Shown: positions 3,283 to 25,051 of the stretch, one piece after another
How the letters are laid out: each line of letters begins with the position of its first letter
Position numbering within the stretch: position 1 is the stretch's first letter
From: Sanyastnella coralliicola
Lineage (GTDB): Bacteria; Bacteroidota; Bacteroidia; Flavobacteriales_D; Sanyastnellaceae
Direction of reading: 5' to 3'
Assembly: GCF_030845195.1 (NCBI RefSeq)
Contig: NZ_CP132543.1
Coordinates: 2,249,501-2,313,500 of the forward strand
DNA length: 64,000 nt
Program-made: the position numbers and the translations under genes
The notes under the pieces: generated by a model
The model's database searches: none
What the model was told of the DNA's origin: nothing
The model's input: only the letters and a program-made list of their open reading frames with translations

Positions 3283-6200
3283 ATGCGATTAATCAAACTC
3301 TCTCTTTGTCTCCTTTTCGCCGCCCTATCTATTCAATCAATGGCGATAGATAAATTTTGGAGACCTATTGGTACACCTAACTGGAACAGTGCATTTAACT
3401 GGTCCCCTACCGGAGTTCCGAACAGCGGTGACGTTGTTCACTTTGACACCTTCGATGGAACCGATTGTACCGTGAATACGAACGTCAACGTAGCCGGAGT
3501 CATTCTTGATGCTGGTTATACAGGTGTTGTCTGGCTACAGGGAACAAATTCATTCACCGTAGGAGCCAACGGTTATGTCCAGCACGACGGAACCTTTCAA
3601 TGTGCCGATGGAACCGTCACCTTCAACGGACCATTCGACCAACAAGGTGGAGCCTTTAGCACTACCCTTGGTGATCATTATTTCAATAACACCGTCAACA
3701 TTGCCCCTGCTGCACCAGGTTTCTTCAATGATAATGGCGGTTGGATCATCTTCGGAGGTGGGAACAACGTCACACTGAATCAAAGTTATCAGTTGCTGAA
3801 TGTGCGGGTGCAAAAAACCGGAGGCTCTGTGCTGACTCTAGCAGCTGGACAACAAATCACCATCAACCAACAATTGGAATTAATCACCGGATATGTTGCT
3901 GGGCCTGGAAGACTGCGCCTCTTCGGAGACGGCTTTGTAGGATCGAGCATGAACAGTTCTTCAGCTACCCTTGAGTTGTATGGTACTGGTTCGCGTGAGT
4001 TCAAAATCAACGCATTTAACTGGGGTCAAGACGTCATCGAGATTACTAATGGAGCGAACTACTTTTTCCGCTCTGACAACTCTACCCTCAACATCTTGCA
4101 GGCCGGGGATTCATTGAAGATCCTTCTCGGACATGCCATCATGGATCACCCGAATGTCTATCTAAGACCAAATGCCGTATTCATGGCCTCTAGCGGTCAA
4201 TTCACCGCAAGTAGTGGCAACACCTACCTTGAGCGTGGATGGATCAATGAAGGTTCTGGTTTCAATGCTAACGGAGGGGTATTCTATTTGAGCGCAGGCA
4301 ATAATGCCACGATGGACCTCACTTCAGAACAGGTTTTCTATGATCTCGTTTGTGCTAAATCAGGAGGGGCTAATCTCAATCTGACAGATAACTCAAAAAT
4401 TCGTGTAAGCAACAAATACACGGCCTCTTCAGGCTACTTGAATGGTAGCAATGGTGCTGTGATCAACGCTGTTGACAGTGTGGTCATCAACTCCACTTAC
4501 GTTCAAGGAACATGTCCGCTTCACTTCGTTGGAGATCAAAACGGAACCTTCATCTACAACAGCTCATCGAATCTATTCTCTGAACTGCGTATTAAGAAAG
4601 ACGCCGTAAACGATACGGTGCATTTTGAAACGACTACGTCTACATTAAATATCGGTGACGTTTCGTCTGACCCGATTGTGGTTGAACAAGGAACGCTCGC
4701 CTTCAAAGATTATGGGAATCATGTTGATTGGAACGTGGTGAACACTACCGTGGAATCAAACGGGAAATTCGTGGCTCCAGAGGGTACGATCTACTTCAAT
4801 GGTAACTATACCGCCAACGGAGGAAGTTTCGATCACAACATGGGTACTGTGCGATTTGACAACGGTACCCCAAGAACCTGGAATGGCAACCCGACCACGC
4901 GGTTCTATAATCTCCGAATGGAGAAATCAGGCGGTGCTTCTGTCACCATTGATGGTTCAGATCAATTGATTGTCGAGAATCTCATGACTTTTGCGACGGG
5001 ATATCTCAACGGTCCTTCAGCACTTGTGGCCTGCGAAAAAGACGTATTGGTCACCAATACTTATGTCCAAGGAAATGCGCCAGTGGCTTGTGTTGGTCCG
5101 GCGGATGGTGTTTTCACATACAATAGCTCTTCGAACCTCTTCGACTTACTCACGATCAACAAAGACACCCCTTCCACGAGTGTTTCATTTGGCTCTACCA
5201 ATTCCTTCTTGAACATGGGTGATGGTGTTACCGACCCTATTGTGATTCAACAAGGTACCCTGCGCTTTGAAAATTTTGGAAGCCATGTGGATTGGGATGT
5301 TTTCTCCACTACCGTGGAACCGGATGGAACCTTTGAGGCGCCAGCGGGCACCATCTACTTCAATGGTAACTATACCGCTAATGGCGGAAACTTTGAGCAC
5401 AACATGGGCTTTGTCCGCTTCAATGATGGATCCAACCGCTCTTGGGATGGCAATTCTTCTACTCGCTTCTATGATCTGCGTATGGAAAAGAGCGGTGGTG
5501 CGAATGTGGCTATACAAGGCACTGATACGCTTATCGTAGAAAATCTGATGACCATTAGCTCTGGATACCTTAACGGTGCGACTGCCCTACTCGCTTGCGA
5601 AAAAGACCTAACGATCACCAATACCTACGTCCAAGGAAATGCTCCTGCGGCCTTCATAGGTAATGAAGCAAGTGTATTCACCTACAATAGCTCATCAAAT
5701 CTTTTCGATCTGCTCACCATCAATAAAGACACGCCAGGAGCAACGGTTAGCTTCGGTTCTACCAATACCTTCTTGAATATTGGTGATGGGGTAACCGATC
5801 CGATTGTTGTTGAACGTGGAACGCTTCAATTTGACAACTACGGTACTTACGTCGATTGGGATGTTTTTTCCATTACCGTGGAATCAGATGGTAGCTTTAT
5901 CGCTCCAGCTGGTACGATTTACTTCAACGGAAACTACACCGCGAACGGAGGCCACTTCGATCACAACATGGGTTTTGTCCGTTTCAACGATAGTGCAAAC
6001 CGCTCTTGGGATGGAAACTCTTCTACCCGCTTCTACGATCTCCGAATGGAAAAGAGTGGTGGTGCCAATGTGGTTATTCAAGGCACTGACTCTCTTATCG
6101 TAGAAAACCAGATGACCATAAGTTCTGGTTACCTCAACGGACCAAATGCGTTGTTGGCATGTGAAAAGAACATGACCATCACAAACACTTATGTGCAAGG

Positions 6201-19261: not shown

Positions 19262-19330
19262 GATCGCAGAAGGCAGAACGCGGAACGCGGTAGGAGCACC
19301 CCACCGCGTTCCGCGATCTACGATCAGCAT
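19262..19330. repeat. Heptad repeat array 6 (cruciform)
   Basis: GATCGCA, GAAGGCA, GAACGCG, GAACGCG from 19262, then the complementary ACCGCGT, TCCGCGA, TCTACGA, TCAGCAT from 19303. The central 13-bp arms (19279-19291 and 19303-19315) are perfect inverted copies. It lies between convergent genes and could also act as a bidirectional terminator. Confidence 0.88.
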
Positions 19331-19768: not shown

Positions 19769-19838
19769 GCGGAGAGCAGAACGCGGAACGCGGTAGGCAG
19801 ACCCCACCGCGTTCCGCGATCCGCATTCCGCGTTCCTA
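19769..19838. repeat. Heptad repeat array 7 (cruciform), enters a stop codon
   Basis: Ten consecutive in-phase units: GCGGAGA, GCAGAAC, GCGGAAC, GCGGTAG, GCAGACC, CCACCGC, GTTCCGC, GATCCGC, ATTCCGC, GTTCCTA. The halves are inverted copies of each other. The last unit contains the TAG stop (19836-19838, minus strand) of the outer-membrane protein gene. Confidence 0.9.
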
Positions 19839-22265
19839 CCTAACCCTTCCTTGTTCTTCATCAGAACCACTGCCTCGGTGGGCATTCTTTTGATTCGTTG
19901 CTTTACCAAAGTTGAAAGAGAAGGCCAGAGCGAACCGACGGGTGTCACGAACGCTGTTCCAGTCTGCTTCTGTTTGTTCGAGGTTATTGATGATTCCATC
20001 ACCGCGACGCGTAAAGAGAATATCATTCACAGAGCATTTCAGGTTCGCTTTACCGTCCCACAACGCTTTCTGGAAACCAATGTTGATGCCTCCAAAGCTG
20101 CGCAGGAAGAGCTGCGAGTAGACCATGTCGCTGCGGTAAATCCCGCTAATGTCACCCTTCCACCCTTTTCCGAAATCAAAGGTGTTCGTCAGAGAGAGGT
20201 ATTGGTAATCACCACTGGCATTGAGTTGTTGGTTGTACAACGGACTGTCAAAAGTCAGGTAGGCATATTCACCGTAGAAGTTCACACGCCAGCGTTTGGA
20301 TACTGAGACCGCTCCATCAACTGAGAATGAGAAGGTTTGGCTATCAGCAATGTTACCTGGTCGACTATAGTAGATCTCATCGACGATCTCGAGTGTTTCA
20401 TTGATACCATCGATCGTATTCGAGTAGCTGAAAGTACCGTTGATCATACTCCTCCAGGTGTAGGTTAGAGAGAAATTGTTCGAGAAGGTAGGCAGCAGAT
20501 TCGGGTTCCCTGAATAGAAGGTGAAACGGTCCAGCGGACTAATAAATGGATTCAAATCCATGAAGTACGGACGATTGACACGCTTACTGTAGGAAAATGA
20601 AAGGAGGTGGTGATTTGCCGAATCAATTCTCCAAGTTGAGTAGAAGGTTGGGAATAGATTCTGGTAATCACGGGTAAAGGAACTATCTGATTGTTCCGCA
20701 TTTCCAAGTTGATTCCCTTTCAATGAAGTGGCTTCTCCACGCAGCCCCAATTGGAAGTCTACCTTTTCAAATGACTTACTAAAATTCACATAGGCGGCGT
20801 TAATCATCTCTTCGTACAAGAAGCGGTTACTAAGACCATAGTCAGGGGTTGTCACGCCATCAACAGTGTTGGTATAGATGGCTTCATTATCCGTTTCTGT
20901 ATAGGCTGATTTCACCCCAGCCTCAAACATACCGCTCCCGCCTAGAGACTTTCGGTAATCCGCCTTCACGGCATAAATATCAATGGTACTTGGAAGCTGT
21001 CCGTTGATGCGGTCTTGGTAAGTCAACACCCCAGTGCTATCATAAATGAAATTGTTAAAGACCTGGTCATTGTCCGTTTGATAGCGAACGAGGTCAGCAT
21101 CAATTGAGATTTTTTGTCCGAGCGAATCTAAATAGTGAGCAAAGTAAAGCGTGTATGCCTGACTATCGAAAGTCTCTTCTTCGTCATTGTCGGCCAACAC
21201 CTCTTGGATCAATGCTCCGTCTGGTTGCGCCACTATGGAAGTGTTATCTGTGTAACGTGTCGTCGGACTAATATTAAGGCGGAAAGAACCACCGAAGTTG
21301 GTGTTATCTGACGGATAGAGATCGATACCACTTCGCACGTTAAAGTACTTTCCACCGTGATTAATGAAAGAATTCTGCTTGAAGCTCGAGGTTGAGACAC
21401 CCTCCGCATCGCTGTAGAAACGATTGATGTTCAGGTCCTGGTAGTTCTCCCATAGACCTGCATTCACGCTGGCATATACCCCCACCTTTTCACGGTTGTA
21501 ATTCACGTTGAGATTGTTGTTGCTGTTCGCATAGGACCCCTGGCGGTATCCTGTATTGAAGTTCCCGTAGAAACCACGTAGGGCGTTTCTTTTGAGGACA
21601 ATATTGATGATTCCACCACTACCGGCCGCGTCAAATTCTGCTGGTGGGTTCTCCATGATTTCAATGCGCTGAATGGAGCCTGTCGGCAATGATCGCAAGT
21701 AGTTCTCTAGCTCTGATCCAGATAGATACGACGGCTTGTCATTGATATAAACTTGAACACCTGACCGTCCTTTCAACAGTAATGAACCATCGCTATTCAG
21801 AATGATTCCTGGCGCCTTTTCCATGATGTCTAGGGCATTGCTCCCCGCATTCGATGGAAGAGCGTCAGGGTTGACGATGACACGATCTATTTGTCGCTCC
21901 ACGAAAGGTACTTCTGTGGCTACTTCCGCTATGTCAATCGCTGTGGCATTGGCTTTTATGACTAACGTCGGAACGGATAAATCCTTCTCAGCAACGGTAA
22001 TAGAGCGTCGGGTAATGTGGTAAGAGAGCATCCGTGCCTCGATGGTATAGTCACCGCTTGATATTTGGCCTAACACAAAACTCCCGTCTTGATCGGTGTA
22101 AACCGACTTGACAATGCTTGAATCGCTGGCTGACAAGAGAACCACCATGGCGAGATCCATGGCCTTTCCTTGTTCATCTTCGACTTTTCCTGTGACTTGA
22201 AAAGTATCCTGAGCCACGCTTGGAATGGCTAGAAGAATGAGGAGAATAGTAACTACGTTTTTCAT
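19836..22265 (-). CDS. Outer-membrane beta-barrel receptor with carboxypeptidase-regulatory domain
   Basis: 809 residues. The signal peptide ends at PSVAQ. Domain order: CarboxypepD_reg-like beta sandwich (about 22-105: VTGKVEDEQGKAMDLAMV...GDYTIEARMLSY), a TonB-type plug (about 120-225; NALDIMEKAPGIIL, VYINDKPSYLSGSELENYL, ENPPAEFDAAGSGGIINIVLK), and an outer-membrane barrel of the OMP_b-brl_3 type (PF14905). It probably imports or binds a substrate in a TonB-dependent way; there is no SusD partner. The last codons (about 15) after FNFGKA are unusual for such a barrel, which normally ends in an aromatic strand. They run into heptad array 7, so the array may have displaced the original end (inference). 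Confidence 0.88.
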   Translation of the reverse strand: MKNVVTILLILLAIPSVAQDTFQVTGKVEDEQGKAMDLAMVVLLSASDSSIVKSVYTDQDGSFVLGQISSGDYTIEARMLSYHITRRSITVAEKDLSVPTLVIKANATAIDIAEVATEVPFVERQIDRVIVNPDALPSNAGSNALDIMEKAPGIILNSDGSLLLKGRSGVQVYINDKPSYLSGSELENYLRSLPTGSIQRIEIMENPPAEFDAAGSGGIINIVLKRNALRGFYGNFNTGYRQGSYANSNNNLNVNYNREKVGVYASVNAGLWENYQDLNINRFYSDAEGVSTSSFKQNSFINHGGKYFNVRSGIDLYPSDNTNFGGSFRLNISPTTRYTDNTSIVAQPDGALIQEVLADNDEEETFDSQAYTLYFAHYLDSLGQKISIDADLVRYQTDNDQVFNNFIYDSTGVLTYQDRINGQLPSTIDIYAVKADYRKSLGGSGMFEAGVKSAYTETDNEAIYTNTVDGVTTPDYGLSNRFLYEEMINAAYVNFSKSFEKVDFQLGLRGEATSLKGNQLGNAEQSDSSFTRDYQNLFPTFYSTWRIDSANHHLLSFSYSKRVNRPYFMDLNPFISPLDRFTFYSGNPNLLPTFSNNFSLTYTWRSMINGTFSYSNTIDGINETLEIVDEIYYSRPGNIADSQTFSFSVDGAVSVSKRWRVNFYGEYAYLTFDSPLYNQQLNASGDYQYLSLTNTFDFGKGWKGDISGIYRSDMVYSQLFLRSFGGINIGFQKALWDGKANLKCSVNDILFTRRGDGIINNLEQTEADWNSVRDTRRFALAFSFNFGKATNQKNAHRGSGSDEEQGRVR

Positions 22266-22368: not shown

Positions 22369-24525
22369 TTAGCTATGCGTATTCCAGTTTGGAGTTGGTC
22401 TTGTCATGGTGCGAGGGGTAACGGTTGTGTGCACTTCCGCTTTTAATTCAGCGCCATATTGAACGAGTAATCTCACTAGGTCTGGGTTTCGAGATTCTAA
22501 GGCATAAGACAGCGGTGTGGCTTTGCCATCTCCCTTATAGTCAGGGTCAGCTCCGTGAGCTAGTAAAAGTCGACACAGATCTACATCCCCTCGTTTACAG
22601 GCAATGATTAACGGTGTATAGACTACTGAGCTGGTGGTAGTCATACCTTCCGTGGTGGTTGTTTCCGTTACCCGATGATAACAATCAAGGTCAACCAATC
22701 CGAGTAACTGCTCAGCGCGACTATGATCTCCCACACGGAGCGCCTCGATCAAATCTTGACAAGTGAAGTTGCTCTGACTATGGTCGATGTTCACTCGACG
22801 TTGCTTGTCTTCATCGGTGCGCATGTCGATGGCTAATCCAACGGAATACACCGTAATTCCAAGGTTGTTATGGAAGACGATATCGGCTTCAGGATAGCTC
22901 AGCGCTTTCTTGATAAAAGGAAAGTCATTCGAAACGCCATCGGTATTTAGCGGACAAGCAAATTCACGTGTCAACAATAAGTCTCGAATCAAGGGTTCGT
23001 CTTTCTTGATGATGGCTTCCGCGAGAGCGATAAAATTCGTGTCTTGACAATATCCTTTGTGGTAATCGTCCACATCGATTCTGAACCCAATCTCACTGAT
23101 CTGAAACTGACGGTAGCCAATGATATTGATGTCGGCATTGTATCTCATCAACCCACGCATCAGTGGCAAATCTTGTGAAGGACCTCCACTAGCGCTTTGC
23201 ATACACGAGAGGTCAGCAAATTGAAGCGCATGCCTTAGTTCAGCGAAATTGCCCGAGTCAAGGTAGCCTCGAATTTGATCGCAACTGGTCTCATCTACCG
23301 GCATCTCTTGATCAGCGATCATCTCCTCTAGTAGGTGGTCAATTCGGTCAGCTTCCGCTTCTAATTCCTCTTGTGACTCCGAAGGTTGATTGGTGCCCAT
23401 ACAAGCTGGATCGAGTGTTGGAAGAAGCTCACGTACTCGTTCTAAGTCGCCATCGAGAACAGCACGCTCAAACTCTTCACAGTTGGGGTTCAGCTCTTCT
23501 TTGGGCTCCTCAATTTCTGGAGGGAAGGCTGAAATCAATAGAATATTCGAAGGGTCGCGTTCAGCCTCGATCTCCTGTGACGGCAGGTTCAGTGCCATGG
23601 TTAAAATCATGAGTACTGGAATCGCGAAACCGTATTTGAAGTAGTTGAAGTTGTTCGACTTCTTCCCATTCATTCGAAGAATCCGACTCTTGATCAAACT
23701 TTGGTTGTAGTTGGTAGTAATCGCCAAGGGTGCGGTGTGACAAGCGATTTTAACCAGATTCATCTGGTAGTTCTCTTTCTGGCTTTCATTCTCAGCGACT
23801 AGCAATTGATCAGTCTGGAACTCTACGTTACGCTCGATTTCCTTGCGAAGAAGCCAAACAAACGGGTTGAACCAAAGCAGTGCAACGGCCAACTCTGCAA
23901 GAATTAAATCAACACTGTGCCACTGCTTCACATGGATTCGTTCGTGATCCAGAATCTGGTCATAGGTCTCGTAATCGTACAAGGCGGGATTGATGAAAAT
24001 GTACTTGAAAAATGAACAGGGCTCGGTCTTCCCTTCCACATTCACAATCACGCCTTCATCGGTAGCTAGTTTATCTTCATTGCGAGAAGCTTTTACAACT
24101 ACACTTACCACTTGAGCAAGGAGATTCAATAAGAGTAGCCCAGCACCAAAAGCGTACAAGTACCACAACCATTGAAAACTACTCGTTGATTCTTCTTCGA
24201 TGATGGCAGGCGCTGTAGCGCATGTTACTCCTGCGTCATCAACAGTGATGAGGTCTTCATCGGTGCCATTTTCCATGGCGAAAAATTCTTCACCTTCATC
24301 AGCAATGATCACTTCTTCAGTGGCGTCATTCTCCCAAATTGAGGCCACAAACCCTTGTTGTTCATGCCATTTCGGAAGAGATAGAAAAGGAATCATCAAG
24401 GCAAAGGCAAGGCAACTTAACAGGTACATTCGATTCACCGCGAAGAAGCTTTCTCTAGCGAGGAATAGCTTATAGAAGCAGTAAAGAATCGCAATAATGA
24501 TGGATGATTTGATCAGTAATTCCAT
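22369..24525 (-). CDS. BlaR1/MecR1-like M56 metalloprotease with Cys-stapled ankyrin-like sensor domain
   Basis: 718 residues. Two N-terminal helices (3-20, 33-50), an acidic loop, a third helix (about 118-144), then the cytoplasmic zinc protease with HERIH (194-198) in LDHERIHVKQWH and downstream Glu in ERNVEF. A fourth helix (about 298-314) puts the rest in the periplasm. Instead of the usual TonB-like or penicillin-binding domain, residues 345-620 hold four helical-hairpin modules, each bounded by cysteines (C349-C375, C415-C441, C493-C524, C589-C615). Two ordinary ankyrin repeats follow (about 637-698, HGADPDYKGDGKATPLSYAL). Known role of the family: signalling by cleaving the partner BlaI repressor. 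It lies 2 bp downstream of that repressor gene. The inducing signal is unknown. Confidence 0.85.
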   Translation of the reverse strand: MELLIKSSIIIAILYCFYKLFLARESFFAVNRMYLLSCLAFALMIPFLSLPKWHEQQGFVASIWENDATEEVIIADEGEEFFAMENGTDEDLITVDDAGVTCATAPAIIEEESTSSFQWLWYLYAFGAGLLLLNLLAQVVSVVVKASRNEDKLATDEGVIVNVEGKTEPCSFFKYIFINPALYDYETYDQILDHERIHVKQWHSVDLILAELAVALLWFNPFVWLLRKEIERNVEFQTDQLLVAENESQKENYQMNLVKIACHTAPLAITTNYNQSLIKSRILRMNGKKSNNFNYFKYGFAIPVLMILTMALNLPSQEIEAERDPSNILLISAFPPEIEEPKEELNPNCEEFERAVLDGDLERVRELLPTLDPACMGTNQPSESQEELEAEADRIDHLLEEMIADQEMPVDETSCDQIRGYLDSGNFAELRHALQFADLSCMQSASGGPSQDLPLMRGLMRYNADINIIGYRQFQISEIGFRIDVDDYHKGYCQDTNFIALAEAIIKKDEPLIRDLLLTREFACPLNTDGVSNDFPFIKKALSYPEADIVFHNNLGITVYSVGLAIDMRTDEDKQRRVNIDHSQSNFTCQDLIEALRVGDHSRAEQLLGLVDLDCYHRVTETTTTEGMTTTSSVVYTPLIIACKRGDVDLCRLLLAHGADPDYKGDGKATPLSYALESRNPDLVRLLVQYGAELKAEVHTTVTPRTMTRPTPNWNTHS

Positions 24526-24527
24526 GC

Positions 24528-24884
24528 CTATCCTTTTTTAATGATCTTGATCAATTCATCTTTCTCGGCATCCGTCAGTCGCTCTTCTTTCGCGAAGTGT
24601 GCCATCATCTTCGTCAGGGAGTTATCGAAGAACTTCTCCTTGATATTCCCCAGGTGTTCTTTTCGATACTCTTCAAAGTCTTGAACTGGACTAAACTGAT
24701 AGCTATTCGCAATCATCTCGCTCTTCAAGACTTCCTTCTTAACTAAGATTTTCACCAAGGTCGCCACCGTATTGTAGTGTGGTTTGGGATCAGGAAAAGC
24801 ATCCACGATCTCTCGTATACTTGCTGCTTTCAGCTCCCAGATGATCTCCATAATCTGGTCTTCTCGTTTGGTAAGTTTCTTCAT
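24528..24884 (-). CDS. BlaI/MecI/CopY family transcriptional repressor
   Basis: 118 residues, Penicillinase_R family (PF03965). The N-terminal winged helix is MKKLTKREDQIMEIIWELKAASIREI (about 1-70, including HYNTVATLVKILVKKEVL, the recognition helix). The C-terminal dimerisation helices carry the YRKEHLGNIKEKFFDN region, where family members are cut by the cognate M56 protease. It represses its own operon as a dimer. Three phased inverted repeats lie 27-80 bp upstream. The M56 receptor follows after 2 bp. Nothing suggests beta-lactam resistance: no beta-lactamase gene is present. Confidence 0.93.
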   Translation of the reverse strand: MKKLTKREDQIMEIIWELKAASIREIVDAFPDPKPHYNTVATLVKILVKKEVLKSEMIANSYQFSPVQDFEEYRKEHLGNIKEKFFDNSLTKMMAHFAKEERLTDAEKDELIKIIKKG

Positions 24885-24903
24885 GGTGAATGAATTGATG
24901 AAC

Positions 24904-24964
24904 CAAACGTACTAATTTTTTAGTGACATCACTAAATTTTTAGTAGCCCTCCTAAATTTTTAGG
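24904..24964 (-). promoter_or_regulatory. blaI promoter with three 20-bp-phased operators
   Basis: Three 14-bp inverted repeats start at 24911, 24931 and 24951: ACTAATTTTTTAGT, ACTAAATTTTTAGT and CCTAAATTTTTAGG. The centres are exactly 20 bp apart, two helical turns, so three BlaI-type dimers could bind one face. On the minus strand a perfect -7 element (TACGTTTG, 24911-24904) overlaps the first operator. Bound repressor would cover the promoter. Sites and spacing are seen; the repressor assignment follows from gene context. Confidence 0.8.
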
Positions 24965-24981: not shown

Positions 24982-25051
24982 GATCGCGGGGTGCGGATCG
25001 CAGAACGCGGTAGGCTAATATCACCGCGTTCCGCGATCCGCGATCCACCTT
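24982..25051. repeat. Heptad repeat array 8 (cruciform)
   Basis: Ten in-phase units: GATCGCG, GGGTGCG, GATCGCA, GAACGCG, GTAGGCT, AATATCA, CCGCGTT, CCGCGAT, CCGCGAT, CCACCTT. AACGCGGT pairs with ACCGCGTT and GATCGC with GCGATC, with one internal loop. Even the loop unit keeps the 7-nt phase. It lies between divergent blaI and serC. Confidence 0.9.

Follow-up and report, generated by a model that had tools for sequence, protein, structure and literature searches.

What does a BlaR1-type membrane protease sense when no penicillin-binding domain is attached to it? The question is raised by a gene pair in a stretch of 64,000 nucleotides from the genome of Sanyastnella coralliicola (contig NZ_CP132543.1, positions 2,249,501 to 2,313,500), referred to here as the window and numbered from its first base, in which the gene for a BlaI-type repressor is followed by one for an M56-family receptor with a tail of cysteine-bounded modules and ankyrin repeats. 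M56 receptors are, to our knowledge, known mainly as beta-lactam sensors. The pair is probably an autoregulated envelope-sensing system of the BlaI-M56 kind, in which the ankyrin tail, with its likely disulfide cap, would sense a ligand and trigger cleavage of BlaI. The gene order, the catalytic residues, the cysteine module conserved among relatives and the operator motif are all visible in the sequences themselves:

22369-24525, minus strand: M56-ankyrin receptor of 718 amino acids, an open reading frame from ATG with Pfam M56 and Ank matches above cut-off.
24528-24884, minus strand: BlaI/MecI-type repressor of 118 amino acids (PF03965, 97.5 bits), 2 bases upstream of the receptor gene.
24911-24964, no strand assigned: likely BlaI operator, three dyads of the ACTAAnnnnTTAGT type at a 20-bp period, from motif matches, with binding predicted.

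The receptor gene runs from 24525 to 22369, and a plus-strand reading of the same coordinates is full of stops; the initial annotation had correctly placed an open reading frame at this position, but the gene sits on the minus strand. The genome of the window (4.10 Mb in a single contig, 99.87% complete) encodes one further M56 protein, with a BlaI-like gene in front of it and a tail that appears to be TonB_C.

The receptor is divided into a membrane protease and a long C-terminal tail, and the protease half is the more familiar of the two:

23578-24525, minus strand: M56 membrane metalloprotease domain, residues 1-316, from a Pfam match to residues 12-282 and the predicted model.
23932-23946, minus strand: HExxH zinc motif (HERIH), residues 194-198, invariant in 33 aligned M56 proteins.
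23809-23823, minus strand: ExxxD gluzincin motif, residues 235-239, from the aligned M56 proteins.

The match to Peptidase_M56 (PF05569) scores 44.7 bits against a curated cut-off of 31, and residues H194, E195, H198, E235, D239, Y253 and R281 are invariant in an alignment of the window protein with 32 M56 relatives; E195 and R281 are kept in 79 of 80 rows when the window protein is set against 79 M56 loci. In the BlaR1 report (PMC9834060), the zinc-site motifs of that protein are given as H201EXXH and E242XXXD, and the distance between the two motifs is 41 residues both in BlaR1 (H201/E242) and in the receptor (H194/E235). A structural model was predicted from an alignment of 32 rows, all of them M56 relatives (mean predicted local distance difference test score, pLDDT, 69; predicted template modelling score 0.48); an earlier fold without an alignment (pLDDT 40) was set aside. 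Within the protease domain of the model, pLDDT is mostly 83-98 outside the loop EL1, falling to 73-79 at residues 261-280 and to the 40s in EL1 itself. Residues 1-279 align by VIA-align with Staphylococcus aureus BlaR1 (8ext_A) with a Z of 16.4 and a root-mean-square deviation (rmsd) of 3.9 over 216 aligned residues, and the best two Foldseek matches of the whole model are BlaR1 structures (8exq, E 1.4e-4; 8exp, E 1.9e-4), followed by ankyrins with E from 1.2e-3. By the predicted model, then, the protease domain has a BlaR1-like fold, and the description of the protein as a BlaR1-like M56 receptor in the initial annotation is supported. One peculiarity of this half of the protein is C170, a cysteine that immediately precedes the SFF motif in the cytoplasmic protease and is found in 10 of 10 ankyrin receptors of alignment A5 and also in a Pontibacter M56 protein (L090); the other 69 M56 proteins of the 79-locus set described below have F (66) or Y (3) at that position.

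The tail differs from that of BlaR1. Only Ank families exceed their Pfam cut-offs in the tail, where no penicillin-binding or class D domain is found, and the whole protein scores 19.9 bits against the NCBIfam model blaR1_generic, for which the cut-off is 400, and lies far below cut-off for the NCBIfam BlaR1 models. The receptor falls outside the strict BlaR1/MecR1 beta-lactam class, which is defined by a class D-like C-terminal sensor that was not found in this protein. What it carries instead is the following:

23401-23481, minus strand: cysteine module 1, residues 349-375, C-x25-C; model helices 347-358 and 361-370; block pLDDT 65-88.
23203-23283, minus strand: cysteine module 2, residues 415-441, C-x25-C; model helices 415-424 and 427-436; block pLDDT 61-71.
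22954-23049, minus strand: cysteine module 3, residues 493-524, C-x30-C; model helices 496-506 and 510-519; block pLDDT 64-77.
22681-22761, minus strand: cysteine module 4, residues 589-615, C-x25-C; modelled ankyrin cap; block pLDDT 78-87 from residue 591.
22618-22677, minus strand: long beta-hairpin finger, residues 617-636; model strands 617-625 and 628-636; block pLDDT 69-81.
22438-22623, minus strand: two canonical ankyrin repeats, residues 635-696, from Pfam; block pLDDT 76-92 up to residue 690.

Ten of the 15 cysteines of the receptor lie in the tail, eight of them bounding the modules (349, 375, 415, 441, 493, 524, 589 and 615) and two (643 and 651) within the first of the canonical repeats. 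The four pairs, three of them with exactly 25 residues between the cysteines, had been given in the initial annotation; the spacings are 25, 25, 30 and 25 residues, module 3 being C-x30-C. When eight cysteines are placed at random, 0.10% of trials have the same gap in at least three of the four consecutive pairs, and 0.015% if the shared gap is restricted to 20-35; the interiors of the three exact modules align with a score of 48, against a shuffle mean of -67 (standard deviation 21) and 0 of 20000 shuffles. A larger internal repeat, with units 411-492 and 489-588, is weakly supported: the units gave 0 of 1000 shuffles, the spacers 18 of 5000, and other pairs of units anywhere from 0 to 340 of 1000.

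The canonical repeats match Ank_2 at residues 635-696 with 47.5 bits (cut-off 27.3), the only Ank_2 match in the genome, in agreement with the two normal repeats read there initially. Residues 585-699 of the model overlay many DARPins (VIA-align Z about 15, best rmsd 1.3 on about 95 residues), and residues 586-695 overlay the DARPin fusion 5lw1_G with an rmsd of 1.3 over 95 residues; module 4 is therefore modelled as the first ankyrin repeat, or cap, and is separated by the hairpin finger from the first canonical repeat. Modules 1-3 are predicted as helix pairs with varied confidence, pLDDT dropping to 45 at the end of module 3 (residues 521-530), in a region not spanned by the fold matches. 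The cysteine-bounded, ankyrin-like modules of the initial annotation are supported, with the correction that module 4 is modelled as part of the ankyrin stack itself. In relatives with a single module (L083, L092 and L166) the Ank_2 match starts at residue 342-343, just inside the module.

Searches with the window protein alone revealed little: among 114 genomes of its family the other 113 gave no full-length match and four gave partial ones; no fusion relative was found in 399 genomes of the order, where no more than two or three candidates per genome were scored, or in a scan of genome contigs. With the tail as query, viral contigs did not reveal the family, and in 395 genomes of the phylum the matches were confined to the ankyrin end. 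The family came to light in a scan that started from an M56 alignment of four rows and used one degenerate pattern, which yielded 79 loci (best 80 of 521 relatives). A later profile search, with E <= 1e-60 and at most two candidates scored per genome, covered one family (397 genomes). All family counts are lower bounds. Nine of the 79 loci (L083-L089, L091 and L092) can be matched to most of the window protein, starting at residues 1-6 and ending at 694-699, and come from Croceivirga, strain ALC-1, Lacinutrix, Winogradskyella, Ulvibacter and other Flavobacteriaceae. At least one exact C-x25-C is present in the tail of all nine, and two in four of them, and the nine tails have only three to five cysteines each; after the one or two modules, a rough count of motifs gives about 4 to 15 ordinary repeats. 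Beyond residue 300, C-x25-C occurs in none of the other 70 loci, three of which are short frames (L142, 294 residues; L156, 302; L146, 340) and which are called free of ankyrin from the extent of tblastn matches and from tail ends, with Pfam run on L090, L095, L098 and L133 only. In an M56-domain tree of 91 rows, which carries a warning on long branches among distant rows, the window protein and the nine near relatives form one clade (99/90; 98% of bootstrap trees) adjoining Pontibacter L090, and the ankyrin-tail trait requires one change, a number as low being reached in 0 of 500 label shuffles.

The later profile search matched 17 genomes, in which three of the nine loci were found again together with three other M56 proteins, and added six ankyrin receptors, three with one module each (L165, L166 and L167) and three without (L168, L169 and L170). 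It also returned five ankyrin proteins that stand alone and are 320-337 residues long (L172, L173, L176, L177 and L178), all with an apparent signal peptide and C-x25-C at once after it, four with no further cysteine, and none with BlaI or M56 within about 1.5 kb; the count of five in five is biased because the search profile included the module. In all, 13 of 16 receptors and the five stand-alone proteins carry C-x25-C, with 24 modules in 18 proteins and the consensus CxxLLxAxxxxDxxxVKxLLxxxDPNC. As controls, the module is found in 0 of 19 other ankyrin frames from the phylum tail-search loci (of 29 such loci, 10 yielded no usable frame), and in 0 of 29 frames taken from 30 loci that a module-containing profile matched across the phylum. 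The two sets share several contigs and are therefore not additive. The search for M56 proteins with ankyrin tails, which had been proposed as a check, has thus produced nine near relatives and six later receptors, and by these sequences the cysteine-module ankyrin receptor is a real and conserved, if uncommon, type, in which the module is not universal.

What, then, are the cysteines for? Each C-x25-C module would be an ankyrin-type helix pair, with one cysteine just before helix 1 and the other just after helix 2, presumably at the residue before TPLH and at the N of GADVN in the canonical repeat. In an antiparallel helix pair the two outer ends lie at the same side, and a disulfide would therefore hold together the first repeat, which is exposed and at which a soluble ankyrin needs its cap. 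The cysteines are likely disulfide-bonded because their spacing is exact and conserved, because of their location, and because they recur in apparently secreted proteins. Neither VKOR nor DsbB, the two oxidases searched for, was found in the genome of the window, and VKOR is present in five of the nine genomes of near relatives and was not found in the other four, several of the nine being metagenome bins of unstated completeness; these results weigh against easy disulfide formation. They also favour the view that the cysteines are conserved for metal binding, or as structural free thiols, and are not bonded at all. That explanation is unlikely, given two cysteines per module at a fixed distance, expected at the same end of a helix pair, with few other cysteines in the tail, and given that the search covered only DsbB and VKOR among the oxidases.

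Somewhat harder to accept is the proposal that the cysteine pairs are themselves the switch, their reduction or mis-oxidation opening the cap and reporting thiol stress or a defect in thiol oxidation. The cysteines are placed where opening would loosen the first repeat, the window protein has four modules, and the apparent lack of DsbB and VKOR means that oxidation may be limiting. However, the one or two modules and about 4 to 15 repeats of the near relatives exceed what a redox switch needs, three receptors do without the module, and stand-alone ankyrins that have no protease bear the same cap.

A disulfide cap would suit a tail outside the cytoplasm, and the membrane topology, like the protease fold and the ankyrin fold of module 4, comes from homology and prediction. 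One further feature is needed here:

24172-24372, minus strand: acidic loop EL1, residues 52-118, with 1 K/R and 18 D/E; periplasmic by homology, low model confidence.

A hydropathy scan of the receptor finds five hydrophobic stretches, of which 208-226 (with WFNP) is the fourth and lies right after HExxH. BlaR1 has four transmembrane (TM) helices and a re-entrant element, with both termini outside (N-out/C-out; PMC9834060), and a re-entrant segment of this kind would explain the count of five; by analogy, 208-226 should be the re-entrant part. Charge is distributed accordingly across 16 receptors, with mean K+R per residue of 0.182, 0.125 and 0.186 in the cytoplasmic stretches and 0.083 in EL1, and with 0.025 K+R and 0.20 D+E in residues 315-340, just after TM4. 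The tail is thus most likely periplasmic, as the initial annotation had placed it, an assignment resting on BlaR1 homology and loop charges, and the cytoplasmic C-terminus that was to count against that annotation is disfavoured by homology only. That 208-226 is a true TM helix and the tail cytoplasmic is very improbable: five stretches do pass a simple hydropathy scan, but W218, N220 and P221 are invariant (32 rows of alignment A2), which makes the segment part of the protease shared by M56 proteins, the residues following TM4 are acidic with almost no K/R, and domains that act outside (M23, LysM or plug) form some of the related tails.

The second half of the system is the repressor and its presumed binding site. 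A BlaI gene adjoins the M56 gene upstream in 10 of 10 near relatives when L090 is included (54-67% identical to that of the window) and in L165-L170 (59-66%). Upstream of BlaI lie two ACTAAnnnnTTAGT dyads 20 bp apart, joined in the window by a third, divergent one; the pair is exact at 24911-24944, the site gives two overlapping matches with 0 and 2 mismatches, and the motif appears in 0 of 100 shuffles at up to 3 mismatches. An exact pair is present in all 15 relatives, the nine near ones and L165-L170. The motif occurs also at the other BlaI-M56 locus of the genome and at some further M56 loci, and it therefore marks BlaI-M56 pairs more widely and not this receptor alone. Within the genome of the window, at up to two mismatches, it is found only at this operon and just upstream of the BlaI-like gene of the other pair, the reversed pattern giving 0 matches. 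No distant regulon is thus visible at that stringency, and BlaI is predicted to act on its own operon, perhaps with cross-talk between the two pairs. A second site that resembles the BlaI operator pattern, with two mismatches and TTCGTT, recurs away from the receptor in four genomes (G792:C7:827857, G795:C1:222777, G796:C5:66105 and G1017:C9:231783).

Downstream of the receptor the picture is more varied. In the window the next gene starts 103 bases further on, in the same direction:

19836-22265, minus strand: outer-membrane beta-barrel protein OMP_b-brl_3 of 809 amino acids (PF14905, 315 bits), a candidate co-regulated gene.

A barrel in this position is seen only in the window and, by tblastn, after the M23-tailed M56 gene of L015, among loci with short flanks. 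All nine near relatives have a co-directional downstream gene, of varying identity: an amidohydrolase of about 690 residues in six (mutually 62-80% identical; PF01979 scanned in two), a serine hydrolase of beta-lactamase fold in two (L083, at 4637-6046, PF00144; L085, 88% identical), and in L092 a gene without a Pfam match. Of the later receptors, L165 is followed by the start of the same amidohydrolase, L166 by the serine hydrolase (68% identity), L169 by a frame 29% like the serine hydrolase over 177 residues, and L167 by other co-directional frames, and no co-directional gene is evident close by the receptor in L168 and L170. The receptors of L083, L085 and L166, which precede a hydrolase of beta-lactamase fold, are themselves without a penicillin-binding domain.

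Taken together, envelope sensing by a BlaI-M56 pair would work as follows, the mechanism being modelled on BlaR1 by homology, with disulfide formation, ligand binding, BlaI cleavage and read-through into the downstream gene being steps that we infer. A periplasmic ankyrin solenoid would take the place of the penicillin-binding sensor of BlaR1 and bind a periplasmic partner, probably a protein or an envelope polymer. On binding, the tail would change its position with respect to the membrane and the acidic EL1 loop, and this movement would switch on the zinc site on the cytoplasmic side, where BlaI would be cleaved; loss of BlaI from the tandem dyad operator would derepress the operon, and derepression may extend to the adjacent exported-protein gene, here that of the outer-membrane barrel. 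In addition to the oxidase results, several points weigh against this reading. Both the sensor role of the ankyrin tail and its ligand are matters that we infer; the template modelling score of the whole model to BlaR1 in Foldseek is low (0.24 by query length); the tail, since the alignment rows cover M56 only, was modelled as a single sequence, with moderate confidence in modules 2 and 3 and pLDDT below 50 in most spacers; half of the six later-found receptors have no module; and the genes that follow the receptor vary from one relative to another, leaving no one target gene conserved.

A more speculative extension, which we regard as doubtful, is that receptor-type and free secreted ankyrins form a separate, disulfide-capped extracytoplasmic class in some Flavobacteriaceae and the lineage of the window. 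Both kinds would be directed at a single class of envelope or foreign proteins, the number of repeats (2 here, about 4 to 15 in relatives) would set specificity in the manner of a DARPin, and the cap cysteines would double as an oxidation checkpoint before signalling.

The setting of the operon raises the further question of whether it is still in use. The operon is part of a 5.7-kb block that sits between copies of a palindromic repeat, GC-rich copies of which flank and divide it at 19283-19318, 19786-19821 and 25003-25038. In a sister species (G048) the two genes on either side of the block, one for an amidohydrolase whose protein is 95% identical and the other serC (95%), lie next to each other, and one copy of the palindromic repeat (L081, about 3650-3700) stands between them where the block is missing; a broken BlaI/M56 remnant with interrupted frames is kept elsewhere (L012, about 2190-2800), its DNA 74% identical to window 24350-24922, with no match to the ankyrin part within the 9 kb taken. 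In another genome, G047, the stretch taken around serC contains neither the flanking amidohydrolase nor BlaI/M56. The remnant and the missing block in the sister species, with the absence of a full-length match in the other family genomes, might suggest a decaying accessory gene without present function, an explanation that is hardly credible given that the window retains an intact BlaI, receptor, set of catalytic residues and operator, and that base composition is ordinary.

How does the envelope-sensing pair compare with systems already described? To S. aureus BlaR1/MecR1-BlaI/MecI it is alike in the HExxH...ExxxD protease, the adjacent BlaI-type gene, the match of the model to 8ext, 8exq and 8exp and, by homology, the extracytoplasmic C-terminal domain; it differs in that an ankyrin tail with cysteine modules stands where the penicillin-binding sensor is found in those proteins. 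Other Bacteroidota M56 proteins, including the second one in this genome, share the BlaI-M56 gene pair and the same protease but have different tails; among those scanned are M23 (L015), M23 with LysM (L133) and plug/CarboxypepD_reg (L098). In L015 and L133 protease and cell-wall hydrolase are united in one receptor. Tandem 29-residue IHG repeats form part of further M56 tails (L090:2998-5373, L095:2989-5499 and L093), and in L090 and L095 no Pfam repeat family spans them above cut-off, one UBA_3 match in L090 being barely over. M56 tails look exchangeable in Bacteroidota, and a BlaI-M56 operon with a protein-binding repeat outside suggests that the same switch senses proteins or the state of the envelope in this phylum.

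The BlaI-M56 part of the system is known, and the cysteine-capped ankyrin sensor is undescribed as far as the literature searched goes: the listed titles and abstract starts of open-licence PMC papers yielded no description of M56 receptors with ankyrin tails or of a C-x25-C ankyrin cap, in line with the initial annotation, which knew of no such sensor type in the M56 family. The cysteine-rich proteins of Helicobacter (Hcp, Sel1-like) are secreted helix-pair repeats, each bridged by a disulfide; they belong to a different repeat family, and the receptor has no Sel1 match in Pfam at E up to 10. Closest in fold are canonical ankyrin proteins and DARPins, which residues 585-699 of the model overlay and with which the receptor shares Pfam Ank matches above cut-off; it differs from them in the fixed-spacing cysteine cap, in the hairpin finger after the cap and, by homology, in its periplasmic location. 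The exact C-x25-C cap provides an easy mark by which to recognise extracytoplasmic ankyrins from sequence, and possibly a natural way to staple an ankyrin cap.

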